From Mogibacterium sp. (GTDB lineage: Bacteria > Bacillota > Clostridia > Peptostreptococcales > Anaerovoracaceae): 35,220 bases of DNA. The position numbers were made by a program, and so were the translations under genes. Under the pieces are notes generated by a model. The model saw only the letters and a list, made by a program, of their open reading frames with translations. It was not told where the DNA came from and searched no databases. Shown here piece after piece: positions 20,175-34,858 of this stretch. Location of the stretch: positions 135,294 to 170,513 of the forward strand of contig JAFRDH010000025.1 of the NCBI GenBank assembly GCA_017403955.1, given 5' to 3'. Position 1 is the first letter of the stretch. Every line of letters begins with the position of its first letter.

Positions 20175-20387
20175 ATGAAAAAGAACATGAATGAAGCAAA
20201 ATCAAAAATGCTCAAGAGAACCCTTGGCGAAGCAATGCTTTTCACAATGGTAATGCTTCTCGCCACAAAGCTCTTCGGATGCGGTCACGAAGACCTGTGT
20301 CCGGTAACCGTTGTTACCATCGTCATTGCAGTGGCTGTTGGCTTCACTGTAATCATCACAGTACTTAAGGAGGTCATTGACCAGTAA
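20175..20387 (+). CDS. Small two-helix membrane protein
   Basis: This 70-residue ORF is read from ATG 20175, chosen because AAAGGGGA lies five bases upstream; an in-frame ATG at 20145 lacks such a site. A charged N-terminus ('MKKNMNEAKSKMLKRTLGEA') leads into two hydrophobic segments ('MLFTMVMLLATKLF' and 'TVVTIVIAVAVGFTVIITVL'). Between them is a short loop with two cysteines (GCGHEDLC). The two-helix form resembles small membrane subunits or toxin-like peptides, but I do not recognise a family. It precedes the unknown helical protein and ClpP-like gene by 79 bases that contain a hairpin. Confidence 0.7.
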   Translation: MKKNMNEAKSKMLKRTLGEAMLFTMVMLLATKLFGCGHEDLCPVTVVTIVIAVAVGFTVIITVLKEVIDQ

Positions 20388-20388
20388 G

Positions 20389-20414
20389 AGGCCGGCAGCA
20401 AAAGCTGCCCGGCC
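20389..20414 (+). terminator. Hairpin after the small membrane protein gene, without T-run
   Basis: GGCCGGCAGC and GCTGCCCGGCC pair around an AAAA loop with one bulge. The following bases (CGTCCTGATAAT) contain no T-run, so it is either a weak terminator or an mRNA-stabilising stem between 20387 and the next gene. Confidence 0.45.
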
Positions 20415-20466
20415 CGTCCTGATAATATATTTGAATCATCAGCATGATTGATGAAAGGGGAAGAGA

Positions 20467-20910
20467 ATGGATAAAAGAATGGATAGCAAGACTGCAATAA
20501 ATGAATACATCCGCATCAGACTCCCTAAACCGGAATGTGAAGATAAGGCATTATATATAGCCCGCAAGTCGCATTCGTCTGTCGATGACGCTAAGAAGTT
20601 CCTCAATGCATGGAATTATTTTAACAAGATCAGCGTGAAGAATATCAGCAACATGAGCGAAAAGCATATCCGCATGATCTCCATCAGAACAGGGCTTAGT
20701 GCAACTGCTGTCCGCGAAATGTTCTATTTCGCGAATAAGTATGACATCGAAAACGGCCTTTCCGACAATGCGTTCTTTGTCAAGATCTATCCGACACTCG
20801 AGTCGTACATGACGGCAGAGAAAATCACCTTCGAAGAGGATGATGCATCTGAAATCTCAGAAAAAGGCGAAGATATGGATAATGATAATGATCCGGAAAA
20901 GATCAAGTAG
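20467..20910 (+). CDS. Unknown small helical protein with acidic tail
   Basis: The 147-residue protein is not recognised. It is predicted by eye to be alpha-helical. Residues ~65-90 ('ISIRTGLSATAVREMFYFAN') have the rhythm of a helix-turn-helix, with a turn at 'TGLSATAV', so DNA binding is a weak possibility. The last ~30 residues are strongly acidic (EEDDASEISEKGEDMDNDND). AAAGGGGAAGAG lies directly before ATG 20467; a second in-frame ATG follows at codon 5. It is nine bases from the ClpP-like gene and clearly in its operon, so it could be a regulator, adaptor or substrate of that protease. Confidence 0.7.
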   Translation: MDKRMDSKTAINEYIRIRLPKPECEDKALYIARKSHSSVDDAKKFLNAWNYFNKISVKNISNMSEKHIRMISIRTGLSATAVREMFYFANKYDIENGLSDNAFFVKIYPTLESYMTAEKITFEEDDASEISEKGEDMDNDNDPEKIK

Positions 20911-20919
20911 GAGGCAGAT

Positions 20920-21519
20920 ATGGCAAATTCTATTTTTGAAAAACCGGGAATACTCAAGGAATCGTCAAGCGGATATACGCATGTCAAGATCGAAGAAGAG
21001 CTGATGCTCACAAGGGAGATTTTCGTGATCTCCCCGGTCGATGCCGACACAATGAGTGCGCTTTTCATGCAGGTACTCTACCTTTACAGAGAAGATCCGG
21101 ATAAAGAGATAACGATCTACATCAACAGTCCCGGCGGAGAAGTCCAGAGCGGAATGGCTGTCGTAGATCTCCTCGGAATGATCGGGACCCCGGTAAGGAC
21201 TGTATGTATTGGCACCGCCGCTTCGATGGGCGCGATGCTTTTCCTGGCAGGAGACAAGCGCGAGATGATGCCGAGCTCCAGACTGATGATCCATGATCCG
21301 TCACTGAGCGGAGGATCGTTCGACGGCAAGAAGCCTGCGGAGATCGAGGCTGAACTCGAAAGACTGAAAGAGACGCAGGAAATGATCGGCAAAATGATAG
21401 CAGAGAAAACAGGCAAGAGCATTGAGGAGGTGCTTAAGATCACAGCGAGAGATACCTATTTCAGCCCGGAGGAAGCGATCGAGTTCGGACTTGCAACGGG
21501 CGTTGTCACGAAAATATAA
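20920..21519 (+). CDS. ClpP-like serine protease subunit
   Basis: The 199-residue protein has the ClpP fold with a complete Ser-His-Asp triad: Ser102 in 'GTAASMGAML', His125 in 'RLMIHDPS' and Asp178 in 'ITARDTYF'. The oxyanion/substrate strand 'ITIYINSPGGEVQSGMAVVD' is also present. ClpP subunits assemble as barrels that degrade proteins fed by Clp ATPases. The usual 'HQP' after the histidine is 'HDP', and the segment between Ser and His is two residues shorter than in E. coli ClpP. With the genomic setting, this suggests a dedicated paralogue, not the housekeeping enzyme. No ClpX, ClpA or ClpC unfoldase gene is nearby. TAGGAGG precedes the ATG. Confidence 0.9.
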   Translation: MANSIFEKPGILKESSSGYTHVKIEEELMLTREIFVISPVDADTMSALFMQVLYLYREDPDKEITIYINSPGGEVQSGMAVVDLLGMIGTPVRTVCIGTAASMGAMLFLAGDKREMMPSSRLMIHDPSLSGGSFDGKKPAEIEAELERLKETQEMIGKMIAEKTGKSIEEVLKITARDTYFSPEEAIEFGLATGVVTKI

Positions 21520-21533
21520 CGGGGAGGTGCGAT

Positions 21534-22265
21534 ATGGATCCGACAATCAGAGTAAAAACACCTCTGGACGTCAGGCTTGCACGTCTCAAAAAGTGCAAAT
21601 CACCATCGCCTGAATTCTCGTTCTGGCTGATGGAGAAAGCAAGTGAGACTTCTGTGATCGATTCTCTCAGGTCGAATAACGCTGAGGCAGAAGCGGCAGC
21701 ACTTCAGCAGGTCTGCAGCAGACAGTTCAGAAAGAACCCCCGCAGCATCACATTCGGTGATCTTGCTGTACTTCTGACCTCCTGGTACATGGGCAATAAC
21801 GATAATAATGATGAATTTTTCATCTATCTTATCAGTTTTATCCGCTTCCTTGAAAAGAACATAAGCGTTTCCTTAACAACTCACTACAGACGCTCGTCCA
21901 AAATGGAGCTGAATGCGGGAGAGCTGAACTACATGGAAGAAATGCTCCAGATCCCGATCATAGATTACATGCAGAAAGTCATGGAACTCGGTATGCCGGC
22001 GCAGAGCAAGGAATGGTTCGCGGATTACTATAATGTCAGCAGGTTTGACGAGTATACCGATCTCAGAACGTTCCTGAAAGAGATACTGGATGATCTGAAA
22101 TATAAGGATGGAACTTTAAACAGTGAGAGCCTGGTCAAGCTGGTAGCGGACGGTAAGAGACTAAGCGATCTGCCGCGCAAAATATTCCAGCCCCTTATGA
22201 ACACCATAGCAATTCCGATCGCATTTATTGCTATTGAATCATTAGAGATCGGACAGGAGGATTAA
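21534..22265 (+). CDS. Unknown helical protein between ClpP-like and VirD4-like genes
   Basis: The 243-residue protein is not recognised. It has no signal peptide. The N-terminus is basic ('TPLDVRLARLKKCKS'), the middle is rich in Tyr, Asn and aromatic residues ('VLLTSWYMGNNDNNDEFFIY'), and it ends in a hydrophobic stretch ('IAIPIAFIAIESLEI') followed by an acidic tip. ATG 21534 has GGGGAGG upstream. It starts 14 bases after the ClpP-like stop and ends 11 bases before the VirD4-like gene, so all three must be co-translated from one message. A role as adaptor between protease and ATPase is only a guess. Confidence 0.7.
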   Translation: MDPTIRVKTPLDVRLARLKKCKSPSPEFSFWLMEKASETSVIDSLRSNNAEAEAAALQQVCSRQFRKNPRSITFGDLAVLLTSWYMGNNDNNDEFFIYLISFIRFLEKNISVSLTTHYRRSSKMELNAGELNYMEEMLQIPIIDYMQKVMELGMPAQSKEWFADYYNVSRFDEYTDLRTFLKEILDDLKYKDGTLNSESLVKLVADGKRLSDLPRKIFQPLMNTIAIPIAFIAIESLEIGQED

Positions 22266-22276
22266 CAGGAGACAAA

Positions 22277-23485
22277 ATGATGGACAGAAGCAGATATCAA
22301 GGTGAACATATACTGGCAGCGGGTATTACTCTCGGTACAGATACCTGGCAGACAGGTATTAACAACAATATCCTCATCTTCGGTCCAAGCGGCGCCGGTA
22401 AGACACGAGGCTATGTTGAACCGAATATCCGTAACTGCAGCAATGAAAGTATCATCGTCAGTAATACAAAAGGCGAGCAGGAAGCAAAGCACAGAGAAGA
22501 CCTTCTGAGAAAAGGCTATAAGGTGCTGAAGATAGATTTCACGGATCTGAGCGCGGGGTGTGGTTACAACCCGATGGACTATATCAGATACGACCCGAAA
22601 ACAGACCTTTACAATGAGCAGGATATCATCTCGCTCTGTATGTGCCTGGTCCCTGATACCGGGAGTAATGACCCTTATTGGGAACAAGCGGCAAGACAGT
22701 ATCTTGCATGCCTCATCGCGTACGTACTTGAGGCCCTTCCGGAGGAAGAGCATACTCTGGAATCTGTAGTAAAACTCGTAGAAAGACTCGGCGACCAGGA
22801 ATTTGATATGCTCGTCAGAGAGCTGTCGGCATTCAAACCGGACAGCACGATCCCGGGAAGATACGAGGCGATCAGAGGCGTATCCGACTCGCCGAAAACA
22901 GATGCAAGCGTCAAAGCTGTTCTTTCCACAGCACTGGATACTCTCAGATTCGATACAGCGCTGGCTCTTTACAAGAAGCCGCAGAAGATCGATCTGTCCA
23001 TGTTCGGAAGAGAGAAAACGGCGCTGTTCATAACGATCAGCGATACTGACCGTTCACTGGACAAACTGGCTAACGCACTTATGACACAGATACTTCAGAT
23101 CCTCTGCCGCAGCGCGGACCATGATTACGAGAATCATTATCTGGATATTCCGGTAAGAATGTATCTGGACGATTTCGCCACAAACCTGTACATACCGAAT
23201 TTTGATAACATCATTTCAGTAATACGTTCCCGTGAGATCTACGTAAGCGTTATCCTGCAGAGCATCACGCAGCTCGAAGCACTGTACGGGGAGGCCAAAG
23301 CCAAAACGATCATCAATAACTGTGATCAGCAGCTTTACCTCGGAGGACAGGATATCGATACAGCGAGATTTGTCTCTGAGAGAGCAAACAGGAATCTGTC
23401 GACAATATTGTCACTCCCGATCGGGCATGGATTCCTGTTCATCAGAGGAGAGAAGCCAAGACCGATCATCAGTTACGCAAGATAA
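22277..23485 (+). CDS. VirD4/TraG-type ATPase lacking membrane segments
   Basis: The 402-residue protein matches the motor domain of type IV coupling proteins. Walker A is GPSGAGKT (36-43) after 'NILIF'. 'NTKGEQEAKHREDLLRKGYK' follows, then 'KIDFTDLSAGCGYNPMDYI', a Walker B-like 'MYLDDFAT' and the late 'VILQSITQLEALYG' with 'CDQQLYLGGQD'. In conjugation such hexamers pump DNA or proteins through a secretion channel. Here the N-terminal transmembrane anchor is absent and no relaxase, VirB4 or other channel gene is visible, so it probably works as a cytosolic motor. Walker B reads LDDF where coupling proteins usually have LDEF; Asp in place of Glu may alter hydrolysis. It ends the first block, followed by a terminator. 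Confidence 0.88.
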   Translation: MMDRSRYQGEHILAAGITLGTDTWQTGINNNILIFGPSGAGKTRGYVEPNIRNCSNESIIVSNTKGEQEAKHREDLLRKGYKVLKIDFTDLSAGCGYNPMDYIRYDPKTDLYNEQDIISLCMCLVPDTGSNDPYWEQAARQYLACLIAYVLEALPEEEHTLESVVKLVERLGDQEFDMLVRELSAFKPDSTIPGRYEAIRGVSDSPKTDASVKAVLSTALDTLRFDTALALYKKPQKIDLSMFGREKTALFITISDTDRSLDKLANALMTQILQILCRSADHDYENHYLDIPVRMYLDDFATNLYIPNFDNIISVIRSREIYVSVILQSITQLEALYGEAKAKTIINNCDQQLYLGGQDIDTARFVSERANRNLSTILSLPIGHGFLFIRGEKPRPIISYAR

Positions 23486-23509
23486 AACAAATTTCCTAAA
23501 TGAAAGGTG

Positions 23510-23534
23510 CGGCAGCATTTCTGCCGTTTCTTTT
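23510..23534 (+). terminator. Rho-independent terminator after the VirD4-like gene
   Basis: CGGCAG (23510-23515) pairs with CTGCCG (23521-23526) around a five-base loop, CATTT, and is followed by TTTCTTTT. It separates the ClpP/VirD4 block from the next gene. Confidence 0.75.
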
Positions 23535-23594
23535 CGTTGGTGAGGATTCCCTCGTGTGTTATTATTTACATGTGAAAGTGCGATATTATTGATT

Positions 23595-23634
23595 ATCCCC
23601 CGTGCGGCAGTGTAACTGCGGGGATTGTTATAAT
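23595..23634 (+). promoter_or_regulatory. Extended -10 promoter with an upstream dyad
   Basis: TGTTATAAT at 23626-23634 combines a TGn extension with a perfect TATAAT (23629-23634), so a -35 box is not needed; none is seen. Just upstream, ATCCCC (23595-23600) and GGGGAT (23620-23625) form a dyad over the -35 position. The predicted start falls in or next to AAGGAG at 23641, giving a very short leader. Confidence 0.55.
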
Positions 23635-23654
23635 TGATACAAGGAGTTTGCAAA

Positions 23655-25022
23655 GTGAGTGACGGAAAAGATAAAGGCTCGAATGATAAAAGTCTGAATA
23701 AGGTAGAAAACACCTCGTATATCTTTATCCCTTTCAGATATGGGGACAGGGAGATATTCAGGGATCTGGTCGGCTCGCTGGGAAACAGCGGTTCCTGGAA
23801 CAGAGAGAAGATCAATGTCAAATACATGCTGAGGTATGTAGCGGACAAGATCAGTTCCGGAGATGAAGAGACCTGTCAATGTTTCCTGTTCAGCCTCAAC
23901 GATACAGCCAGGGAGGCCTTCGGTATCCCGGAAAGAGACGAGTGGTGCAAGATCCCTGCTTACAATTACAGGGGAGAAAAAGTGCAGCCGCTGTTCAGGA
24001 TCGTAGATATCAAGCTGTTCTGCTTCAGAACAGGAGTGGGTATATTCGCGATACGCATCAACCTTGAGAAAGATGATCCTTTCTGGGTGTCAAATGCACT
24101 GTTCCACCTCAAGAAAGTTTCGAAGACCCGCATAATTACAGGAAGAGGCAAGAGCACATTCCTCGGTATGGCGAAGGATCTGGCAAGGGCATTCAGCTAC
24201 ATTGAAGGATTCGAACCGGACTTTTTCTTCTATACATACGAAGGGAAAGAACGTGCGAATGTGCTGACATTCCTCACGGCAGACTCGAAAGATGATTTCA
24301 GTAAAGAAATGTTCTATCTGAGACGCTGCTACAGCGAGGGTTACAAATATCTTAAGAATGCAAAACAAGAAGAAGAGGAGCTCCACACACCATCAGCGGG
24401 GATGAACTGGGGCGTTTCGCCGGAAGCAGCGGTATGTATCGCATGCCCGGACGCCGGGATCGGCAATTTCCTGGAATCGCAGTTCTTCGGGAACTTCAAC
24501 AGCCAGTATCTGCTGATGTATGTCCTGCTTCTCCATCAGAAATACGTTTTGTATATGTACCTGACTATTATCGGCAACAGCGACAGGAACGATCTGGAAA
24601 CGCTGGAAGACTACAAGAACCAGCTGTACGCATTTGAAACGGACTTCGTTTTCAGCTGCATCACTGAGGTCCCGCAATATCAGGTGCTGTATGACAAAAT
24701 CGCCAAAGCTTTTGCCTTGAGAGACATGTATCAGGATGTGCACGAACCGATACTGTCACTGGGTGAAGTCAGAAGAGCCGCTACGGAAAAGGAGCAGGCG
24801 CAGAGAGACAAAAGCCTCAACAGCGCGATCCTCATGCTGTCACTTCTTAGCGTTTTCTCTGCATTGGTAGACAGCTTCGACTTCTGGAATGAATTATTCG
24901 GAGAAATATTCGGCGGAGTGCCGCAGGTAGGTTTCTGGATCACCAAAGTATTCCAGGTCGTCTGTATCATTGCAATTATATATATCGGAATCAAAGTTTA
25001 CCGGAAGTTTAAAGAATCATGA
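23655..25022 (+). CDS. Unknown protein with two C-terminal membrane helices
   Basis: This 455-residue protein is read from GTG 23655, because AAGGAG lies eight bases upstream; an in-frame ATG at 23634 falls inside the promoter. It has a soluble N-terminal region of about 370 residues ('SYIFIPFRYGDREIFRDLV', 'KTRIITGRGKSTFLGMAKDL', 'MNWGVSPEAAVCIACPD'). A charged helix follows, then two membrane helices near the end ('NSAILMLSLLSVFSALV' and 'WITKVFQVVCIIAIIYIGI') and a short basic tail. Helical stalk plus two terminal membrane helices recalls CorA-type topology, but the GMN motif is absent, so ion transport is not claimed. A membrane-attached sensor or effector is possible. It overlaps the 2H phosphoesterase gene by four bases. 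Confidence 0.75.
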   Translation: MSDGKDKGSNDKSLNKVENTSYIFIPFRYGDREIFRDLVGSLGNSGSWNREKINVKYMLRYVADKISSGDEETCQCFLFSLNDTAREAFGIPERDEWCKIPAYNYRGEKVQPLFRIVDIKLFCFRTGVGIFAIRINLEKDDPFWVSNALFHLKKVSKTRIITGRGKSTFLGMAKDLARAFSYIEGFEPDFFFYTYEGKERANVLTFLTADSKDDFSKEMFYLRRCYSEGYKYLKNAKQEEEELHTPSAGMNWGVSPEAAVCIACPDAGIGNFLESQFFGNFNSQYLLMYVLLLHQKYVLYMYLTIIGNSDRNDLETLEDYKNQLYAFETDFVFSCITEVPQYQVLYDKIAKAFALRDMYQDVHEPILSLGEVRRAATEKEQAQRDKSLNSAILMLSLLSVFSALVDSFDFWNELFGEIFGGVPQVGFWITKVFQVVCIIAIIYIGIKVYRKFKES

Positions 25023-25435
25023 AATACAAATATATTGGATGCTTTTTCGACCTCGAGGAATCAAGGGCGCTGAGAAGACTCAGCAGATTCAGAGGCCTCA
25101 AAAAAAGAATAAAAAGCCTTCATGTCACTATAGAATATGATCCGGAGGAAGTAGACACTGATCTTTTTGGCGAAGAGATCGAAGTAAGAGTGATCGGATA
25201 CGGGAACAACAGGAGGAATGAAGGGCTGCTGGTAGAGGCCCATTCAGATAACCCCGTCATCCAGGCGATGATCGACCGCATAGAAGTTCAGCATATTACT
25301 TTGTCCAGAGCGCCGACTGCTGAATCAGTAGATACCAAACATCTGAAATTCAGGGAGATCAAACCGCTCACAGTAAAAGGACGCTTCGGTGGGTTTTCAG
25401 AAGAACTCGGACCAATAGTAGGAATCAACAAGTAG
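25019..25435 (+). CDS. 2H phosphoesterase superfamily protein, RNA-repair-like
   Basis: The 138-residue protein carries two HxT motifs, H35-V-T37 and H92-I-T94, separated by about 55 residues. This is the paired-histidine signature of 2H phosphoesterases (LigT, tRNA-ligase cyclic phosphodiesterase and relatives). The surrounding strands fit: 'KSLHVTIEYDP', 'VRVIGYGNN', 'NEGLLVEA', 'VQHITLSRAP' and the final 'LTVKGRFGGF'. Members open 2',3'-cyclic phosphates or related linkages in RNA or nucleotides. The protein begins on an ATGA overlap with the preceding membrane-protein gene, so the two are translationally coupled. Acting on tRNA ends or on a cyclic nucleotide messenger are both plausible; neither is shown by sequence. 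Confidence 0.75.
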   Translation: MKYKYIGCFFDLEESRALRRLSRFRGLKKRIKSLHVTIEYDPEEVDTDLFGEEIEVRVIGYGNNRRNEGLLVEAHSDNPVIQAMIDRIEVQHITLSRAPTAESVDTKHLKFREIKPLTVKGRFGGFSEELGPIVGINK

Positions 25436-25450
25436 AAAAGGAGACCGGCA

Positions 25451-27181
25451 ATGAATATCAGCAATACCACAATCACAACAAGACTGGAAAATGCACTGCA
25501 TGGACTGCAGGATGAGTTCAAGGGAATCATCGATACGAATGATTTTATCGTGGCGATGAACATGGTCATCAAAGCCGAAGGCAAGTCTGATTATAAGAGC
25601 AAGCTTTCGGTTCTTTATGATATGTTCGATATCTGCGGGATCAAATATGAGAAAGACCGTGAACTCGATTATTACAAAAAGCTGGTCATTGAGAGTGACT
25701 TCCCTTCCTATGCCAAGATCGAGGCACATATGCTCGATGCACTGTTCCGGAGATTTGAGAAATATCCTTCCCCTTCAGATTATATGAAGAGGATCGTTGA
25801 CAGAATGTGCGATGAAGACGATAACTGGCAGGACGATACCCTGAGACTCAGGATCCTGAAGCAGTTTGTGAAATACGGAAACAGTCTTAGGGATGCCGGA
25901 TATGAGGGCGGCGCGTACGTAAAGAAATATGCCAAAGAGCATGGCTGCAGCAAAGACTTAATAAGTAATATCGACCACCTGCTCTACTTTGTGGATGACC
26001 GTATTTTCGGTGTTCTCGAGACTGCGACAAGAGACCAGAGACGTCCGAGAGGCACCTATGGGCTGCTCAAGATGGTAGATGATCTTGCGCAGGGCAAATT
26101 CCGTACAGAAGGAGCGACCAAAGTAGCGCTTTATCTGTTCGCGATGGCTTTTGGCATGACTTATTATTATGAGGCAGCCAAGAACAAAGTCTTTGATCCG
26201 GTATCTGACATCGATATCAACCTCTTCAGAGACTACTACACCAACAATTTCATCAGATTCATCACAGAACCATACCGCGGCAGACTCAACGAATATGAGA
26301 TCGATCCGTCAGGACAGGGTATCAACTACAAGAACTATGCCGAGATGGTATATCTGTATTACATCAATACTGATCTGACTCCTGCAGAGAAAATCAAGAA
26401 GTCTTCCGAGATGATCAAAAGGATCAAGGACAAAATGAAGGGCAAAGAACCTTCCGCCGATGCGGACAAGAGACCGTCCGGCAGCAGAGACTTCAAGAAG
26501 CTGATCGTTCATAATCAGAATGTCATTCATTGCGAGGATATCCTTGGTCTTGATGAAGAGAGCTTTGAAAAATTCCTTTGCACATACTACAATTGCGACG
26601 CTTCCAAGGTCGGCAACAATCCGATCAAGCTCGAAGCATCGCAGAATTCCGCTTTTGCAGTATACAAAGAACTGCTCGGCGACATCACCAAACGAGGCAT
26701 CTCACTCGATAAATGCAACTATGGACTCTGGTTCACAGATGTCAGCGCTTTCGTTTCCCGCAACCTCAACAGAGTCAGACGGTACACAGATTTTATCTTA
26801 GAAAAATACGATAACTTCATGGATCTTCTCATCAGTGTCAACAGCTATATCGGAGTGACACAGGCACAGGCTGTTTTTCACGGGAATCCGAGAGACGCGC
26901 GCGACTGGAATAATCTTGCAGTCGCAAGGCCAAAAGTGCTCAGCATAGATTCTGCTTCTGCAGTAACAAGAGGCGCGATCGTTGTTGCATTCTATTATCT
27001 CTATAACGCAAAACATGAAGGGGATGATCTGTTCAAGACACAGAGCTTCGAAGATTACTTTAACGATTTCAAAGCGGAAATAGATAAATACCTGGAAAGA
27101 GCTCATTACAATCTCTTCAGCGGCAGAGATCTGTTCGACGTTCTTACAGCATTCTCTTCATATGCTTTTACTTATCTCTAG
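25451..27181 (+). CDS. Unknown 576-residue protein
   Basis: I do not recognise this protein. It looks mostly alpha-helical and soluble, with no signal peptide. A possible hydrophobic helix, 'VALYLFAMAFGMTYYYEAA', lies near residue 225 and another, 'GAIVVAFYYLYNA', near 515. A basic, flexible segment ('KKSSEMIKRIKDKMKGKEPS' through 'ADKRPSGSRDFKK') divides an N-terminal half of about 310 residues from a C-terminal half rich in Asn and aromatic residues. AAAAGGAG lies eight bases before the ATG. It follows the 2H phosphoesterase by 15 bases and precedes PP2C by 36, so it belongs to the same message. As the largest uncharacterised member of the block it could be the core or a substrate of the kinase. 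Confidence 0.7.
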   Translation: MNISNTTITTRLENALHGLQDEFKGIIDTNDFIVAMNMVIKAEGKSDYKSKLSVLYDMFDICGIKYEKDRELDYYKKLVIESDFPSYAKIEAHMLDALFRRFEKYPSPSDYMKRIVDRMCDEDDNWQDDTLRLRILKQFVKYGNSLRDAGYEGGAYVKKYAKEHGCSKDLISNIDHLLYFVDDRIFGVLETATRDQRRPRGTYGLLKMVDDLAQGKFRTEGATKVALYLFAMAFGMTYYYEAAKNKVFDPVSDIDINLFRDYYTNNFIRFITEPYRGRLNEYEIDPSGQGINYKNYAEMVYLYYINTDLTPAEKIKKSSEMIKRIKDKMKGKEPSADADKRPSGSRDFKKLIVHNQNVIHCEDILGLDEESFEKFLCTYYNCDASKVGNNPIKLEASQNSAFAVYKELLGDITKRGISLDKCNYGLWFTDVSAFVSRNLNRVRRYTDFILEKYDNFMDLLISVNSYIGVTQAQAVFHGNPRDARDWNNLAVARPKVLSIDSASAVTRGAIVVAFYYLYNAKHEGDDLFKTQSFEDYFNDFKAEIDKYLERAHYNLFSGRDLFDVLTAFSSYAFTYL

Positions 27182-27217
27182 AAATTCACAGGAAACAAGC
27201 GAAAGGATGTAAGAGAA

Positions 27218-27928
27218 TTGATCGATAGATACAGTCATATCGGAAAGTGGCATGCCGATACAGACGGCGATAATCAGGACTATATCTGCAGCGGCAAATA
27301 CGGAAAGAACTCTGTAATAACGCTGGCAGATGGAGTGTCATCATGCAAAGAGTCAAAGACAGGCGCTAAGATCACTGCTGACACGGTAACGAATCTATTC
27401 CTGAAGAAGGGGGAACTGCTTCAGGAATACAGTGAGCAGGATATTGCCAATATGACTCTGGTTGAAGTGCTGTATGAACTGGAACAGGCAGCAGGATCAG
27501 ATAACCGGGAGATCGAAGATTACTCAAGTACGATCGCGAGTGTACTTCATGACAAGAAAAATAAACGTCTGATGTGCATGAGCCTCGGGGACAGCCTAAT
27601 AATCGGGACTTCCGGAGAAGACTGTTATGTCCTGACTTCGCCTTATGACAGCAGAAAAGGCTGCTGTGTGACAACGACACAAGGGGCGGAGACACAGACA
27701 CAGATACGAATAATAGATGACGCAGAGATCGATTCAGTGATCATCCTCTCAGACGGAGCATGGCGCCCGTTATTCGAAAGAGGGAGCATGAAAAAAGACA
27801 TCCGGAGTATGCTTGCGGCAGAGGACTACGAAGGACTCAAGAACTACCTGACTGAACAGAACGGAAATGACGATTACAGTTTTATCACAATGGATATAAC
27901 CAGAAAATCAGGGAAGGCACTTAAATGA
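27218..27928 (+). CDS. PP2C-type phosphatase (second copy)
   Basis: The 236-residue protein has the short bacterial PP2C plan: 'DGDNQDYI' near 16-23 with the first metal aspartate, 'ITLADGVSSCKES' (D38, G39), 'MCMSLGDSLIIG', 'IILSDGAW' and 'NGNDDYSFI' at the end. It is smaller than and only distantly similar to the PP2C at 3402-4343, so the two are not recent duplicates. The start is TTG 27218 with GAAAGGA ten bases upstream; the nearest ATG, at 27208, is followed at once by TAA. Its stop overlaps the start of the giant kinase as ATGA, so phosphatase and kinase are made together and probably act on the same targets. Confidence 0.85.
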   Translation: MIDRYSHIGKWHADTDGDNQDYICSGKYGKNSVITLADGVSSCKESKTGAKITADTVTNLFLKKGELLQEYSEQDIANMTLVEVLYELEQAAGSDNREIEDYSSTIASVLHDKKNKRLMCMSLGDSLIIGTSGEDCYVLTSPYDSRKGCCVTTTQGAETQTQIRIIDDAEIDSVIILSDGAWRPLFERGSMKKDIRSMLAAEDYEGLKNYLTEQNGNDDYSFITMDITRKSGKALK

Positions 27929-30900
27929 ACAAGCGCAAGTTTCTGAAAAACAAAATCACGCTTTATGGTCTGAGTGACGGAAAGCAATTCGAAAGGACAT
28001 TCACGATAAGCAGGGTGATCGATGCAGGAGCGGATGGCATATGCTATGAAGCAAGCCACGAGAAAAGCAGCAAAGGCGTTCTCAAGGAGTTCTATCCGCT
28101 GCAATTACCTGGATTTGAGCGAAACGAAGACGGTCATCTGATCTATGACCCTGAATTCGGAGGAAGCCGCAGGATATTTCTCCGAACCAAAGAAGAGTTC
28201 ATCAATCAATATGAAATGCTGCTCGATCTGAGAGGCAAAGAAGGGAACAACGATTTTGCGACTTTTATCCCGCCTTTCGAACTGTACTATGGACCGATGG
28301 ATCTAGAACACGGTGACAGTACAGTATACGTATGGACACCGCAGCCGGAAAGCGTGACTTTCAGCAAGATCTGCGATGAGATACACAAACATCCCGATGT
28401 AAGGCCTGAATACAAACTGTTCATAGTACTGAAGGCTATCGAGACCCTGACAAAATGCATTTACTCTCTGCACATGGAAGGTTTTGTGCACAGAGACATC
28501 AAGCCATCGAATTTCGGATTTCTCAAACGCGGAAATGAGATGCTGACACAGTCCATATCTCTGTTCGATATAGATTCGATCACTTCCGTCATGAACAAAA
28601 GCACGATGGAAAGAGGGACCGAAGGCTACTGCGAACCTGATTTCGGGAAGAAAAGATTCAATAATCAGACTGATATCTATTCGATCGGAGCAACGCTGTT
28701 CACAGCGCTCATAGTAACGGACGAGGCCAAACAGGCCGGTTATAAATTCAGAGAAGAATTCTGGGATGATCTCGGAGAAATGGTCCGTGAATCGGAGCTC
28801 ATCAAGGCATCCGAGAGGAATTCGGACTCAAGACTCAGAAATATTTTAACAACGATATTGAAAGGTTGTCTTTGCGGCAGGAACAAGAGATATGAACGCT
28901 GCGAAGACCTTCTTGAAGACATTGAGAAAGCGCTTTTCTATACCCTCCCGCCTGAAATTTCGAAAAACAATCGAACAGGAGAGAGATGGGTGCTTGCGGC
29001 AGCTGAGAAGAAGCTTGACGCAAACAAAGAAAAGAACTCTTCTCTTGTCATGATGTATCACCTATATGAGCATCCGCTCTACACCTTTGCTCCTGATGAA
29101 GAGGACGAACTCAACATCATGATCACCGGACTCGGATTCTACGGGCAGAAATTCCTCGACATGTGTCTTCAGACCGGCCAGATCGCGGGGAAGCAGATGA
29201 ATGTCTTTGTGATCACAGAGAACGATACCGACCGGGAGGTCTACCTCGAAGAAAGACCGGGACTTAAAGATTTCTTTGATATTTCCGTCCCGTCCAGAGA
29301 GATCTTCTACCAATGTCCGGAACCGTACGGAAGGATCATCTTTGAAACTGTACAGCGCGACAGATCAGATGATGAAGGATTTTGCGATCTTCTGCAGAAA
29401 ACACTGATGAAATACGGCAGGAAGCATCGCATCCACTATATTTTCACAGACCTTAATTATGACAAACTGAACTCCCGCGTTTCGACAGCTTATTCCAAGG
29501 TAATAAGCGATTCCGGCAAACCGTGTCATATTTGCTATGCGTGCGAAGACAGCGGCGAGACCTCGAAAAACAAGAAATCAGTCAGGAAAAATATTTATCC
29601 TGTCTATATGAATTCAGATGTGAGGAAATCCGAATTATATCCTCAGATCGAGAGAATGGCATTCAATGTCCATCTAGTCTGGGAGAGGAACCTCAATCTG
29701 GATTACAATTTCATCAAAAAAGAATTCAGAAAACCATACAACCATATTTCATGTGTCACTTTTGTCGTTTCTCTCAAGCATAAGCTCCACAGCATCGGCA
29801 TCGATCCGGATGAAGTTTCATTTGAGGAAGCGGCACAGTCATTCAGCGCGCTCATAACTTCCGAGGATGCTTCGAACGTGCGCAACGGACTGATCTGGAC
29901 CGAACACAGACGGTGGGTAGCCGAGAAAATCTGCAGCGGCTGGAGCAGACTTACTGATCCTGAGCGCATTCTTGCGGGAGTTACCAAGGACGAGAGAGCG
30001 AAGAAGCACGTATGCATCGTAAGAAGCAGGCCGTTCCTGACTCTGAGCGAAGACTCCTGGCAGAAGAAAGACAAGCAGAAATGGGACAAAGCATCGGATA
30101 AAGAGCTGAACAAGCTCGATGACCTTGACCGCCTGTCTGTAGATATGCACAGACTATATGTCAAAAGGGCTAAGGAGATCAGGAGAAGAGGTCTTAATAC
30201 GGTGGGAAGTCTCACCGAGCTGAAATACCTGGTCCAGAGTGCGTCAGGGCAGCAGGACGCAGGGATCAGAAGTGTATTTGAAGAATGGTACGCATGCATC
30301 CGGAACATCTGGGAAGGAGACCGGTCCGGAATAAGAAGGTACAAGAGCCTCAGACTCGCACTGGAAAACAGCGCTGAAAAACTGGATGAAAAGACATGTG
30401 CTGCCATCAAAGAAGAAATCAAAGAGTTCGACGCATATTTCCATCCGGTACTTGCAGGCAACGAGTATTTTGACTGGAAGAAAAATGACATAGAACTGAT
30501 AGACAATATCCCGTTTATCCTCACATACAGCGAGAAGATCTATCTGGTGATCCCGTTCCATGCAGGGAAAACTGCTGATGAACTGTTCACCAACGTGGCT
30601 GCAGCGACGCTCGTCAACCCGGAGAAGATACTTTATCTGTATGAAGCCGGGGATGCGAAAGACCTCGATGCACTCGCAGAGGCTTTCCCGAAGGTGACCG
30701 CGTACCTGAGAGGAAAGAACCTCAAATCATCAACAGAATTTATTGTGATACACGATGGACAAACGCTCACGGAAAAGGTTATCGAAGAGGCTGTCACAAA
30801 TGCGGGCGGTGTCCTTCGCAGGACGCTTGACACCGGAGCATTAGAAGATCAGGACCGGGAAGAAGTTCTGAAAAAATATCTGAAAGAAACATGCAGAGGA

Positions 30901-31857
30901 AAGAGCGTATTTACCGGGGACGGCAGTGACGCGCTTACTTTTATCAATAAATCACCATTCATCACAGCCGCAGATATGGCCGTTCTGGCAGGCACTTCAG
31001 CTGAATGCACAGAAAAGCCTGAGTTCGAAGAAGAGCATGAAGAGCTCTGGACTAGGTACTGCGAAGATCCCCGTGAATGGAAAAGATTCTGCACCACGCT
31101 CGGAAAGCTGGCTGCAGAAAATGACACTTTGGCTGTTTTCGACACGAAGGCTGCATCTCCAAAGAAGGAACCTGACGAATACCGATATATTCTTCCGGGA
31201 TTCTGCATAACAGGAGCGATGAAAGTCATAGACGGCCTGAAAGAGTGCTGCCTGATCGGGCAAAACAGCTTTATCACCGGCTACTCGTCGGATTCTTACG
31301 AAGTAAAGATATACGACAGGTATGGGCTCAAAGAACAGTACGACAAGCTGTTCTCGAATATTTTCGCACTGATATCGCCTGACGCGATAAAAATGGTCGC
31401 CGGAGACAAGACCACCGTGGTATGCGATTATCTGACGATCGACGAGATCGACCGCGCAGAACTGGACGGACCTCTGACTGACTATTTCAGGGCAAAGGGA
31501 TTCATAATCACGGATGACGAAGGTGACGGAACGTGCAGACTGATCTTCGGATCAACGCAGATCAAGATGCTGCTCACAGACGCAAGGCGGATCATTGGGC
31601 TGCAGGTCTACCATGAAGCAAAATCGCTCGGCCTGTTTGATGATGTCGTATCAAGACGGCCGTCGGAAGATGAGGATCATTACGTAGTAATCATGACGCA
31701 CGGACTGAACAGTTATTTTGTCAGTTGTTGTGACGCAGCCGGAGAGAAAGCAGCGAAAGCACAGCTTTGCCGCATCGCGGAACGCTCCGGAGTCAATGCG
31801 ACCGTCAAAGTCCTCCGCAGGAACAACATACGGAAGCAACTGGAGGCATTACTTTAG
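27925..31857 (+). CDS. Giant multidomain protein: Ser/Thr kinase, Rossmann-like domain, RyR-like domain and unknown C-terminal region
   Basis: The first ~340 of 1310 residues form a Ser/Thr kinase: weak glycine loop 'DAGADGICYEAS', lysine K54 in 'VLKEF', intact HRDIKPSN (189-196), DID (215-217) in place of DFG, and 'GTEGYCEPDF' as activation-segment end. Residues ~395-580 look like a nucleotide-binding Rossmann domain, with 'IMITGLGFYGQKFLDM' giving GLGxxG. Residues ~640-750 resemble the prokaryotic RyR domain ('LIWTEHRRWVAEKICSGWSR', 'HVCIVRSRPFLTLSED', 'LDDLDRLSVDMHRLY'); TrkA-N-like plus RyR is a known bacterial pairing. The last ~500 residues are not recognised but include alternating strand/helix segments ('KIYLVIPFHAG', 'KILYLYEAGDA') and 'EELWTRYCEDPREWKRFC'. 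A ligand-gated kinase is a fair inference. GGGAAGG precedes the ATG. Confidence 0.8.
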   Translation: MNKRKFLKNKITLYGLSDGKQFERTFTISRVIDAGADGICYEASHEKSSKGVLKEFYPLQLPGFERNEDGHLIYDPEFGGSRRIFLRTKEEFINQYEMLLDLRGKEGNNDFATFIPPFELYYGPMDLEHGDSTVYVWTPQPESVTFSKICDEIHKHPDVRPEYKLFIVLKAIETLTKCIYSLHMEGFVHRDIKPSNFGFLKRGNEMLTQSISLFDIDSITSVMNKSTMERGTEGYCEPDFGKKRFNNQTDIYSIGATLFTALIVTDEAKQAGYKFREEFWDDLGEMVRESELIKASERNSDSRLRNILTTILKGCLCGRNKRYERCEDLLEDIEKALFYTLPPEISKNNRTGERWVLAAAEKKLDANKEKNSSLVMMYHLYEHPLYTFAPDEEDELNIMITGLGFYGQKFLDMCLQTGQIAGKQMNVFVITENDTDREVYLEERPGLKDFFDISVPSREIFYQCPEPYGRIIFETVQRDRSDDEGFCDLLQKTLMKYGRKHRIHYIFTDLNYDKLNSRVSTAYSKVISDSGKPCHICYACEDSGETSKNKKSVRKNIYPVYMNSDVRKSELYPQIERMAFNVHLVWERNLNLDYNFIKKEFRKPYNHISCVTFVVSLKHKLHSIGIDPDEVSFEEAAQSFSALITSEDASNVRNGLIWTEHRRWVAEKICSGWSRLTDPERILAGVTKDERAKKHVCIVRSRPFLTLSEDSWQKKDKQKWDKASDKELNKLDDLDRLSVDMHRLYVKRAKEIRRRGLNTVGSLTELKYLVQSASGQQDAGIRSVFEEWYACIRNIWEGDRSGIRRYKSLRLALENSAEKLDEKTCAAIKEEIKEFDAYFHPVLAGNEYFDWKKNDIELIDNIPFILTYSEKIYLVIPFHAGKTADELFTNVAAATLVNPEKILYLYEAGDAKDLDALAEAFPKVTAYLRGKNLKSSTEFIVIHDGQTLTEKVIEEAVTNAGGVLRRTLDTGALEDQDREEVLKKYLKETCRGKSVFTGDGSDALTFINKSPFITAADMAVLAGTSAECTEKPEFEEEHEELWTRYCEDPREWKRFCTTLGKLAAENDTLAVFDTKAASPKKEPDEYRYILPGFCITGAMKVIDGLKECCLIGQNSFITGYSSDSYEVKIYDRYGLKEQYDKLFSNIFALISPDAIKMVAGDKTTVVCDYLTIDEIDRAELDGPLTDYFRAKGFIITDDEGDGTCRLIFGSTQIKMLLTDARRIIGLQVYHEAKSLGLFDDVVSRRPSEDEDHYVVIMTHGLNSYFVSCCDAAGEKAAKAQLCRIAERSGVNATVKVLRRNNIRKQLEALL

Positions 31858-31946: not shown

Positions 31947-32114
31947 ATGCTTTTGTTATCGATCTTGATCTTGATCTTAATATTGAAATATATCATCTAT
32001 CCTTTGCTGATACTGACAGGAAAATTCACAGTGGGATTATGCCGCCTGGCTGTAAAGGTGATCGGTGCGATAGCTATTCTGATGTTGATCGTGACAATGG
32101 CTTACAGCACATAG
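31947..32114 (+). CDS. Short hydrophobic protein, 55 residues
   Basis: ATG 31947 opens a 55-codon frame ending at TAG 32112-32114. It begins 'MLLLSILILILILKYIIYPL' and ends 'VTMAYST'. Two hydrophobic segments (about 1-22 and 36-51) flank a basic middle ('TGKFTVGLCRLAVKV'), so it should be a small two-helix membrane protein. AAGGAA six bases before the ATG, the perfect -10 upstream and the neat fit before the sigma-factor ribosome binding site (stop 23 bases before its ATG) support real translation. It resembles type I toxin-like or small regulatory membrane peptides only in general composition. A sigma-factor regulator is a guess. Confidence 0.6.
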   Translation: MLLLSILILILILKYIIYPLLILTGKFTVGLCRLAVKVIGAIAILMLIVTMAYST

Positions 32115-32137
32115 CAGATGGACCAAAAGGAGTTTTT

Positions 32138-33007
32138 ATGGGAAAGAAGAAAAATACAGATAGACTTGACGACATCTCGGGTTTGACAACGATAGATCTG
32201 TTGAAAATCGACATCGATAAAATTCCGCGTCTGTCGCAGGAAGAAATAAATGAATTGGTGCTGAAGGCGCAAAATGGCGATGAAGCAGCCAAAGATAAGG
32301 TCTGGAGAAGCAATATCGGGCTCGTACTCCAGGCTGCAAGGAAAAAAAGTGAAAGAGATAAAAGGTTATCCCTCGAAGATTTCGTACAGGAAGGGGTGAT
32401 CGGTCTCGGCACAGCTATAGACAAATTCGATCCTTCCCGCGGAAACATGTTTTCTACGTATGCGGTATATTGGATCTATCAGGCAATGGGTAAGGCAGCC
32501 GAGAAAAAAGGCAGGACCATCACGCTTCCTGCCAGCGCCCAGGAGAAGATCCGCAAACTGCTCAAAGCGCAGAAAGAGCTCGAGCAGGAGCTTCAGCGTG
32601 ATCCTACCATTGATGATTATGTGAGAAAACTCGATATGCCGGTAGAGGATGTGATCGACACGATGATCAATGCCGACATGATTTATTCTCTCGATTATCC
32701 GATGGGTGAAGATGAAGAAGAGACGCTGCTCGACCTCATCTCAAATAAAGAAGGCAGTACGGGCGCTGACTCCGGGTCGGATAATAAGTATTCGGCGCTC
32801 AAGGTAAGATATTGTCTTCTGACTCTTTCTGACAGGGAGAGGTTCGTTCTTATCAGAAGATATGGCCTTGACGGCATGAGAAAGCAGACTCTCGAGGAAC
32901 TCGGGATCGAGCTTGGGGTCACAAGAGAACGTGTCAGACAGATCCAGGCCAAAGCGACCCGCAAATTCGTCGATCGTTTTAATAACATGAGCGACGATGA
33001 TTTTTGA
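32138..33007 (+). CDS. RNA polymerase sigma-70 family factor
   Basis: The 289-residue protein has sigma region 2 ('DFVQEGVIGLGTAIDKFDPS' followed by 'FSTYAVYWIYQAM'), a region 3 with 'GRTITLPASAQEKIRKL', and region 4 with 'LSDRERFVLIRRYGLDG' and the helix-turn-helix 'TLEELGIELGVTRERVRQIQ'. It directs RNA polymerase to promoters. Region 1.1 is absent and the protein is shorter than the housekeeping factor, but regions 2.4 and 4.2 resemble primary sigma factors, so it is probably an alternative group 2/3-type factor. AAAAGGAG six bases before ATG 32138 sets the start; the frame is open further upstream but overlaps the 55-residue ORF. The PolC-like gene follows 27 bases later. Confidence 0.92.
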   Translation: MGKKKNTDRLDDISGLTTIDLLKIDIDKIPRLSQEEINELVLKAQNGDEAAKDKVWRSNIGLVLQAARKKSERDKRLSLEDFVQEGVIGLGTAIDKFDPSRGNMFSTYAVYWIYQAMGKAAEKKGRTITLPASAQEKIRKLLKAQKELEQELQRDPTIDDYVRKLDMPVEDVIDTMINADMIYSLDYPMGEDEEETLLDLISNKEGSTGADSGSDNKYSALKVRYCLLTLSDRERFVLIRRYGLDGMRKQTLEELGIELGVTRERVRQIQAKATRKFVDRFNNMSDDDF

Positions 33008-33034: not shown

Positions 33035-34858
33035 ATGAAATACTTTGTAAAAGATAATTCCGGCAACCACCCTTCCGAGACGGTTTCAGACGGCAGGGGC
33101 AGTGACCGGATAAGAACCGGAGATCTTGTTGAGCAGGCTGCAGGCCGTGGGGCGAATGCAGTCTGCATTTTAGAGTACAATAGTGTGACCGGCTTTCCCG
33201 GGGCATTTGATACATGCAGGAAACTCGGCCGTGCCGGTAAACCGGTAACTCTTGTCTACGGAGCTGTTTTCGATACGACAGATCCTGAAGCCGGTTTGGC
33301 CGGACTGATACCGATCACCCAGAACGGCGTGACAGCTCTTTACAGGTTTATCACGAAAGCCTATTCCGGGTACGCATCCGGCAGTAATGCGGAACCAAAG
33401 GTTCCGGTCTGTGAGATAGAGCAGACGGTCAAAGAGTCAGACGGAGATCTTGTCAGCATCCGGATGGCTGACATAGACGAACTTCTGACAGATCATAATC
33501 TTAACGTTATCGCTGATCTTGCCAAAGGTATCCGCCCTTGGCCAGCAGGACAATTCCGCCCGCACCTGGAGAGCGAATTCTGCAGTCTGGTGGAAAAAGT
33601 GTATAAGAACGCTCGCGATTTATATGGGGACCCACTTCCTGAAGCAGTCCGTAAAAGACTGAAAACAGAGATTGAAAAGATATATTCTAATGGCTATGCG
33701 CCATTTTTTGTAGTTGCCGAGAAGTTCGCTGAAGGTTTTATGCAGGAATCGATCCCGCACGGATTCAGAGGCCTCATCGGTTCTTCTCTGGTGGCGTTCC
33801 TGCTTGAAATAACAGATATCGATCCGCTCCCACCTCATTATTTCTGTCCGCTGTGCGGCCGCTTTCACATGCCTTCATCGGGATCTGAGTACAAAACGGG
33901 ATTGGATCTTCCTGACAGGAAGTGTCCTTCCTGCGGAGAAGTAATGGAGAAAGACGGTTTCGGTATACCAACTGAGACCTTGTATGGTTACTATTGGGAC
34001 AGGGAGCCTGCAATTTTTTTCAATATCCCACCGGCCGCCCGATGGGCAGTACTGAACACGCTCGCAGAAATGTTCGGTGAAGAAAATGTTTTGCTCGGCG
34101 GCAGCGGAACCCCGGGAGGGATCCATCCCGGTGCTGTTCTGATAGTGCCTCCGGGGGTAGATGTCAACCGGTTCACGCCTCTGATGCCTACCGGAGACAA
34201 GAATCTCAGGAATTTCAAGGTCACGCAACTTAGCTGCCTCGGCCTCGATATACCATTTCTCCGTATAGACTTCCTCGGATATGAGCAGATGCAAACCTTG
34301 TCTGATCTGCAGGATGGCAGTCTGAAACTGTATACAGATCTTCCGGAAAATGCTGCAGAAGTACTCAAACTGTTCGAGCCGGGTGCAGACCGCGCCGGTA
34401 TCCCTGACTTCGGAACCGAATTTGCCGAAGAACTTATCAGGCTCACCAGGCCCAAGACCGTCGACGACCTTATCAGGCTAAGCGGACTCATGCACGGCAC
34501 CGGAGCATGGCTTGGCAACGGAGAGAATCTGATCAAATCAGGTAAAGCGGGTTTCCGCGACCTCATAACCTGCCGCGATGATATCCTTGAATATCTCACC
34601 GAAAAGGGTATGGACAGAAAAGACGCATATGACATCATGACTTTAGTGCGTAAAGGCCGTCCGCTCAAACCCGAAATGATATCTCTCATGAAAAGAAACG
34701 ATGTTCCTGACTGGTACATCGAATCCATGTCAAAGATCAGGTATCTCTTCCCAAGAGGCCACGCAGCCGAATATGTAATGACAGCACTGAGACTCGCATG
34801 GTTCAAAATCCACCGCCCTGAACTCTTCAGACAATTTGTCCTGAAACAAAAAGATTGA
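33035..34858 (+). CDS. Shortened PolC-like (C-family DNA polymerase) protein lacking catalytic aspartates
   Basis: The 607 residues align by eye with PolC from the PHP region to the end of the polymerase: 'GFPGAFDTCRK' (PHP), 'HGFRGLIGSSLVAFLLEITD', 'PLPPHYFCPLCGRF' with four zinc cysteines (271, 274, 297, 300), 'KDGFGIPTETLYGY', 'TPGGIHPGAVLIVPPGVDV', 'GIPDFGTEFAEELI', 'LSGLMHGTGAWLGN', 'CRDDILEYLTEKGMD' and 'FPRGHAAEYVMTALRLAWFK'. PolC is normally ~1400 residues. Missing are the exonuclease and a large part of the fingers between residues ~358 and 361. The catalytic PDIDLNF reads PAIFFNI (324-331), though the third aspartate survives (D412, LRIDFLG). The PHP histidine motif reads 'ILEYNSV'. 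It should be inactive as a polymerase, perhaps a regulator or decoy. GAAAGGGAAG precedes the ATG. Confidence 0.85.
   Translation: MKYFVKDNSGNHPSETVSDGRGSDRIRTGDLVEQAAGRGANAVCILEYNSVTGFPGAFDTCRKLGRAGKPVTLVYGAVFDTTDPEAGLAGLIPITQNGVTALYRFITKAYSGYASGSNAEPKVPVCEIEQTVKESDGDLVSIRMADIDELLTDHNLNVIADLAKGIRPWPAGQFRPHLESEFCSLVEKVYKNARDLYGDPLPEAVRKRLKTEIEKIYSNGYAPFFVVAEKFAEGFMQESIPHGFRGLIGSSLVAFLLEITDIDPLPPHYFCPLCGRFHMPSSGSEYKTGLDLPDRKCPSCGEVMEKDGFGIPTETLYGYYWDREPAIFFNIPPAARWAVLNTLAEMFGEENVLLGGSGTPGGIHPGAVLIVPPGVDVNRFTPLMPTGDKNLRNFKVTQLSCLGLDIPFLRIDFLGYEQMQTLSDLQDGSLKLYTDLPENAAEVLKLFEPGADRAGIPDFGTEFAEELIRLTRPKTVDDLIRLSGLMHGTGAWLGNGENLIKSGKAGFRDLITCRDDILEYLTEKGMDRKDAYDIMTLVRKGRPLKPEMISLMKRNDVPDWYIESMSKIRYLFPRGHAAEYVMTALRLAWFKIHRPELFRQFVLKQKD

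Follow-up and report, generated by a model that had tools for sequence, protein, structure and literature searches.

A ten-gene block in a Mogibacterium genome contains an undescribed H-PP2C-kinase module and a recurrently linked ClpP-VirD4 pair

Do ten closely packed genes on one strand form one system, or separable modules lying side by side? The question is raised by a stretch of 35,220 nucleotides (the window) from the gut bacterium Mogibacterium sp. (assembly GCA_017403955.1, contig JAFRDH010000025.1; G000:C18:135294-170513), the right end of which coincides with the contig end. Ten plus-strand open reading frames, here called A to J, occupy positions 20175-31857. An earlier note, made from the sequence alone, had proposed that they are a single undescribed system built from a ClpP-like protease (C), a VirD4-like motor (E), a 2H phosphoesterase (G), a PP2C phosphatase (I) and a giant kinase with a RyR domain (J). 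Its description of the block, including the gaps and overlaps, was confirmed; most of the frames had been read correctly, and profile searches bore out the ClpP, motor, PP2C and kinase calls (CLP_protease, T4SS-DNA_transf/conju_CD1115, PP2C_2 and Pkinase). A single obligate system fails. What we find are two linked but separable modules, a core of H, PP2C and J, and a dyad of ClpP and the VirD4-like motor.

The H-PP2C-J core and its signalling neighbours

Protein H (25451..27181, 576 amino acids) belongs to no known family, and its structure model is all-helical (predicted local distance difference test, pLDDT, 85.7; predicted template modelling score, pTM, 0.87) with no confident fold match. 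It is followed by gene I (27218..27928), which matches PP2C_2 at 2.1e-22 and carries ADG, GDS and SDG stretches that we take to be PP2C motifs, and by the giant J (27925..31857). Seventeen of 391 class genomes gave matches (E 0.001) to an alignment of two H sequences, with H proper present only in the window's genome, G306 and G428; the remaining matches were confined to one inserted stretch and were read as unrelated. In the first relatives found, H, PP2C and a J relative occur in the same order as in the window. A four-sequence alignment compared with 84,980 species genomes yielded 69 loci (L123, L126 and L139 coincide with L082, L083 and L004, and L094 and L132 share one contig). A J relative is present in 63 of these, the loci without one being L089, L102, L112, L140, L142 and L147, and each of the 63 has H ahead of J on one strand. 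PP2C was detected by tblastn anywhere in 42 of the 69 loci; it lies between H and J in 41 of the 63 loci with J and was undetected there in 22. Judged by this linkage, H, PP2C and J are a widespread, undescribed core module, of which the right-hand half of the block is one copy. The earlier claims that an undescribed multi-gene module exists and that kinase and PP2C belong together are thus upheld. Records of H relatives are named Bacillota and Synergistota. Small Gly/Tyr-rich repeat proteins were seen near both J-type genes (L057, 13457-13777; L082, 11688-11903).

The J protein combines a kinase (Pfam Pkinase 3.2e-10, match at residues 170-320), an RCK/TrkA-like domain (about residues 361-567), a weak RyR-like segment (about residues 646-711) and a C-terminal CARF domain with a Card1/Can2-like nuclease fold (about residues 871-1310). 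CARF plus a PD-(D/E)XK fold, the combination that marks Can2/Card1, is found in J, and this end of the protein had been missed in the earlier note. Of 52 assessable J proteins (54 full-length J minus L130 and L145, which are cut by contig ends), 38 keep an intact nuclease motif and 14 have lost it, while the kinase catalytic Asp is kept in all 30 aligned J proteins. The window's J lacks the nuclease motif. For the RyR call, PF02026 has no match in the window's J and falls below 0.1 in 2 of 30 J proteins, whereas a RyR profile built in this analysis matches the window's J weakly, at a consistent position. The RCK/TrkA-like domain, the weak RyR-like segment and the CARF domain are likely nucleotide-sensor modules, in keeping with the proposal that J carries ligand-binding parts. 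Kinase-only J proteins also exist (L122, 367 amino acids; L128, 391 amino acids). At L122 (12449-14458) the kinase-only J is followed by an unrecognised protein of 669 amino acids that may resemble F in the N-terminal part of the latter.

RyR and TIR genes cluster with the core module far above background. An RyR-only sequence occurs in 25 of the 69 H loci, at most 300 bases after J in 19 of them, and two of these sequences were confirmed by Pfam (3e-34 and 2e-37). For TIR, 11 of 13 candidates were confirmed by Pfam, in 11 of the 69 loci, some within STAND-like proteins, including that of L088. Across 79 genomes (~191 Mb, summed from rounded sizes and with the window's own genome counted), there were 7 RyR and 58 TIR matches, which corresponds to about 0.04 and 0.35 expected, respectively, in the 1.15 Mb of H loci. 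The window itself has neither a TIR nor an RyR-only gene; TIR genes are present on other contigs of its genome. Phage RyR proteins bind or cleave TIR-made 2'/3' cyclic ADP-ribose (cADPR; PMC13232231). Because RyR and TIR genes cluster with the module and phage RyR proteins act on TIR-made cADPR, an ADP-ribose signal is a reasonable guess. At L088 (6358-9798), the protein is a TIR-NACHT-TPR-RyR fusion encoded upstream of H. At L224 (8776-13197; the window's own genome, contig C22), an RyR-only gene is flanked on either side by a gene for a protein that has RyR-like ends and predicted membrane segments.

The ClpP-VirD4 dyad and its link to the core

The left-hand part of the block encodes a ClpP paralogue, C (20920..21519; CLP_protease 3.9e-49), which keeps Ser102, His125 and Asp178, presumably the catalytic triad as placed by ClpP motifs. 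A second ClpP-like gene elsewhere in the genome has 39% identity to C. S102, H125 and D178 are invariant across six aligned dyad ClpPs, and the Asp position differs in two others (L184 and L186). The motor, E (22277..23485), matches T4SS-DNA_transf at 8.4e-40 and NCBIfam conju_CD1115 with 260.9 bits (cut-off 250); it has a Walker A motif at residue 36, a Walker B-like stretch at 295 and no membrane helix.

The same pair recurs elsewhere. In six of the 69 H loci (L088, L095, L114, L119, L128 and L149), J is followed on its own strand by ClpP and then a short VirD4; at L114 the frame of ClpP is interrupted by a stop at the coordinates used, and the seventh ClpP-bearing H locus detected by tblastn, L094, has ClpP on the other strand and no VirD4. 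At least seven dyads were found in five of the 391 class genomes (the window's, G522, G560 with two, G335 with two, and G484), based on the best four candidate places per genome and on 60 motor loci and eight stretches inspected for ClpP. ClpP matches in the 60 motor loci were limited to the window's own and the dyad loci listed, and the long conjugative motors among them had no ClpP in flanks of up to 1.5 kb. In a tree, 14 short motors split from nine conjugative VirD4s with 100/100 support, the conjugative rows being the longest frames in short loci and two of the nine incomplete. No member of the short-motor clade has a predicted membrane helix, as against 7 of the 9 conjugative rows, and ClpP accompanies 13 of the 14. 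The member without ClpP (L055, 8966-10222; G131) is a short, soluble VirD4 with a neighbouring gene that is GntR-like by eye. ClpP and motor are at most 21 bases apart or overlap in the ten dyads measured other than the window's, L114 being outside this set, and the window's is the only measured dyad with a gene (D) between the two.

Within the clade, E clusters with the L183 motor (51% identity, 97/95), apart from the six H-linked motors, and a single clade for the window and H-linked motors was rejected (p value of the approximately unbiased test, p-AU, 3e-31). Two motor lineages therefore have the dyad adjoining the core, which it precedes in the window and follows in the other loci. Seven dyads over 391 genomes, at about 2.4 Mb each, would give roughly 0.01 in 1.15 Mb of H flanks, an approximate figure that is probably low given the four candidate places per genome and the 60 motor loci and eight stretches inspected for ClpP; six were found. 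This excess and the two lineages argue for a recurrent link between dyad and core and not for chance neighbours. A single obligate system nevertheless fails, because only 6 of the 69 H loci carry the dyad and, in the stretches examined, only the window's among the seven class-genome dyads is near an H gene. The co-occurrence of homologues that the earlier note proposed as a check was seen for H, PP2C and J, whereas ClpP-VirD4 is mostly found elsewhere, yet recurrently linked.

Among the dyads away from H, a protein of 504-596 amino acids, helix-turn-helix-like by eye, precedes the pair three times (L184, L186 and L187); Pfam gave nothing for the L184 copy, which matches mad1 weakly. At L188 (2260-13733), the dyad lies beside a UvrD helicase and an MkoA/DpdJ-like protein of 1,409 amino acids, with three unrecognised genes downstream.

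The remaining genes and the setting of the block

Spacing within the block is tight, with 79 bases between A and B, 9 between B and ClpP, 14 between ClpP and D, 11 between D and the motor, 15 between G and H and 36 between H and PP2C, and with overlaps of 4 bases for F/G and PP2C/J. The two halves are separated by 169 bases between the motor and F. This gap includes a hairpin with a T-rich tail on the plus strand (23509..23527), a pattern match of a kind not clearly above chance in the window (16 sites found; shuffles gave a mean of 12.1 with a standard deviation of 3.7).

Five genes of the block, A, B, D, F and G, can be counted only as putative members of the system. A (20175..20387, 70 amino acids, one predicted membrane helix) and B (20467..20910, 147 amino acids) belong to no family. 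D (21534..22265, 243 amino acids), between ClpP and the motor, has no significant profile matches. F (23655..25022, 455 amino acids) starts at a GTG, with an upstream TTG at 23634 as a possible alternative. Its residues 229-442 resemble PADLOC CorA-like models (6.8e-11), a likeness that the earlier note did not report, and membrane helices are predicted at residues 387-405 and 428-446, which makes F a candidate membrane effector. CorA-type channels carry a GMN motif in the loop that joins their two helices; in F the only GMN lies at residue 249, well ahead of both helices, and the loop has none. G (25019..25435, 138 amino acids) has the two H-x-T motifs (H35-x-T and H92-x-T) of the proposed 2H phosphoesterase, a call for which the profile support is a weak PHROG RNA-ligase match (1.7e-4). 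A, B and G had no match in the fetched loci, the only loci compared, which included the 69 H loci; D had no significant match in the searches made, again including the H loci; and F matched only itself in 197 family genomes, with none in plasmids or the 69 H loci. Tracing the 455- and 243-residue proteins by their homologues, as had been suggested, thus gave nothing, and F and D cannot be tied to the system because they had no matches where searched.

The block follows a rpsF-ssb-rpsR operon that is conserved in 11 genus-mates, and it is directly followed by a sigma-70 family factor (32039-33007). Neither A nor the gene for the sigma factor was seen after rpsR in the fetched flanks of these genus-mates, which are short and in L199 end at rpsR. 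H is present in 2 of 197 family genomes, its own included; the four genus-mates searched lack it. The block looks, for these reasons, like a patchy addition to the genome. Beyond the sigma factor lies a PolC-like frame of 607 amino acids (33035-34858) with Pfam matches limited to palm and finger-type; a similar fragment occurs at L057, where a Card1-type relative of J and a TIR gene are close by. Further left, a 409-amino-acid frame (13823-15052) without a Pfam match has a YfhO gene on one side and a glycosyltransferase gene on the other.

Possible mechanism, rival explanations and known systems

The make-up of the module suggests a new kind of system for alarm and self-defence. Our preferred reading, to which we give an even chance, is a phosphorylation-gated, nucleotide-sensing conflict system with exchangeable outputs. 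PP2C would keep the system dephosphorylated, in its off state. A signal of infection or stress would bind J, the likeliest being a nucleotide of ADP-ribose or adenylate type that TIR or other enzymes produce. J would then phosphorylate H or other partners and so trigger an output that halts growth, possibly against phage. The built-in output in most relatives would be the CARF-nuclease of J. As the nuclease residues are gone in the window copy, its output is probably the kinase itself together with separate effectors, the CorA-like protein F and the ClpP-VirD4 pair, a protease that a hexameric motor of VirD4 type may feed in place of ClpX or ClpA. At L128, where ClpP-VirD4 comes after a kinase-only J, the pair may serve as output instead of a fused nuclease. 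A simple swap of outputs is, however, at odds with the four dyad loci in which the nuclease motif is kept. In a more specific version, which we consider doubtful, the giant would read nucleotide alarms through RCK, RyR and CARF, be balanced by PP2C and H, and switch exchangeable executioners, one of them a new ATP-dependent protease in which a VirD4/FtsK-HerA-type motor without its membrane anchor feeds ClpP.

The two halves may instead be independent conflict modules in one island, neighbours since defence genes cluster, with the dyad having a role of its own. The gap and terminator-like hairpin between the blocks would fit, as would the absence of the dyad from 63 of 69 H loci and of any H, PP2C or J relative from the fetched stretches around dyads L183-L188, L188 having the helicase and MkoA/DpdJ-like neighbours noted above. 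We regard this as a serious possibility on which the balance is somewhat negative, since the number of dyads in H flanks is far above expectation, two motor lineages adjoin H and the dyad directly follows the kinase-only J of L128. It is also possible, although rather unlikely, that the core acts as a toxin-antitoxin pair resembling the kinase-kinase-phosphatase (KKP) module, with the kinase as toxin, PP2C as antitoxin and H as adaptor or target, and with RCK, RyR, CARF and the nuclease remnant only tuning the kinase. The retention of the kinase Asp in all 30 aligned J proteins, set beside a nuclease motif missing from 14 of 52, the kinase-only J proteins and the KKP precedent favour such an arrangement; the presence of one kinase and not two, the intact nuclease motif of 38 J proteins and the lack of PP2C between H and J at 22 of 63 loci do not.

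A role in housekeeping or envelope-stress signalling, rather than in conflict, seems improbable. Ion homeostasis could account for the RCK and CorA-like parts, and the proposed conflict role draws on gene content. Set against this are the patchy presence of H in the family and genus, the spread of its relatives over two phyla as named in their records, the TIR, STAND and RyR neighbours of relatives, and the genus-mate flanks in which the A gene and sigma factor were unseen. Least probable of all, and disfavoured, is a reading of the left block as the decayed remains of a conjugative element, with the VirD4 as coupling protein and ClpP hitchhiking. E does score above the cut-off for the CD1115 conjugation family, but no other conjugation gene was recognised among the ten block proteins or ten neighbours, and the motor clade is separated from conjugative VirD4s by the tree, by the absence of predicted membrane helices and by its association with ClpP.

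If the preferred reading of a phosphorylation-gated conflict system is right, reversible phosphorylation, nucleotide alarm signals and CARF nucleases would be united in one protein, and an ATPase family of DNA pumps would seem to have been taken on to drive a ClpP protease. That RyR and TIR genes cluster with the module makes a link of ADP-ribose signals to RyR domains inside bacteria testable, and the range of relatives would extend results beyond one strain.

We found no description of an H-PP2C-J or ClpP-VirD4 system in the literature searched, subscription papers being mostly outside its coverage. In ClpXP and ClpAP, the ClpP protease is partnered by a Clp/Hsp100 ATPase. The window's ClpP, with its triad intact, likewise lies beside a gene for a ring-type ATPase, but this putative partner is of the VirD4 family. 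E in turn belongs to the sequence family of conjugative VirD4 (type IV coupling) proteins of the CD1115 type but lacks their N-terminal membrane helices, and neither a relaxase nor other type IV secretion system genes were recognised among the 20 window proteins scanned. MADS is matched only weakly, by its mad6 kinase and mad8 ATPase models (22.8 and 20.8 bits, PADLOC), and the NCBIfam MAD6 match is 31.6 against a cut-off of 460. The clustering of TIR and RyR genes with relatives of the module recalls Thoeris and the RyR proteins that bind cADPR (PMC13232231), and suggests an ADP-ribose signal; unlike Thoeris, no ThsA/ThsB pair was identified.

The anti-phage KKP module consists of PfkA, PfkB and PfpC (PMC11341870). 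As in KKP, a Ser/Thr kinase and a PP2C are encoded together here, and toxicity based on phosphorylation is a plausible output. However, KKP has two kinases, whereas one kinase and one PP2C are found among the ten block proteins, the kinase is fused to RCK, RyR, CARF and nuclease parts and accompanied by H, and PP2C is often missing in relatives. The C-terminal fold of J is that of the Can2/Card1/VC1899 CARF-nucleases of type III CRISPR (PF09002), but it is fused behind a kinase and RCK domain, and the window copy lacks the catalytic residues. A search confined to the Csm1/Cas10 model TIGR02578 found nothing in the genome of the window, which is 95% complete. A CARF/WYL survey (PMC4012209) mentions VC1899-family genes outside CRISPR and kinase-AAA-CARF-winged helix-turn-helix proteins. 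The latter resemble J in having kinase and CARF in one chain, but J has no recognised AAA+ or winged helix-turn-helix domain and instead combines RCK/RyR parts with a Card1-type nuclease fold, with PP2C and H as its partners.

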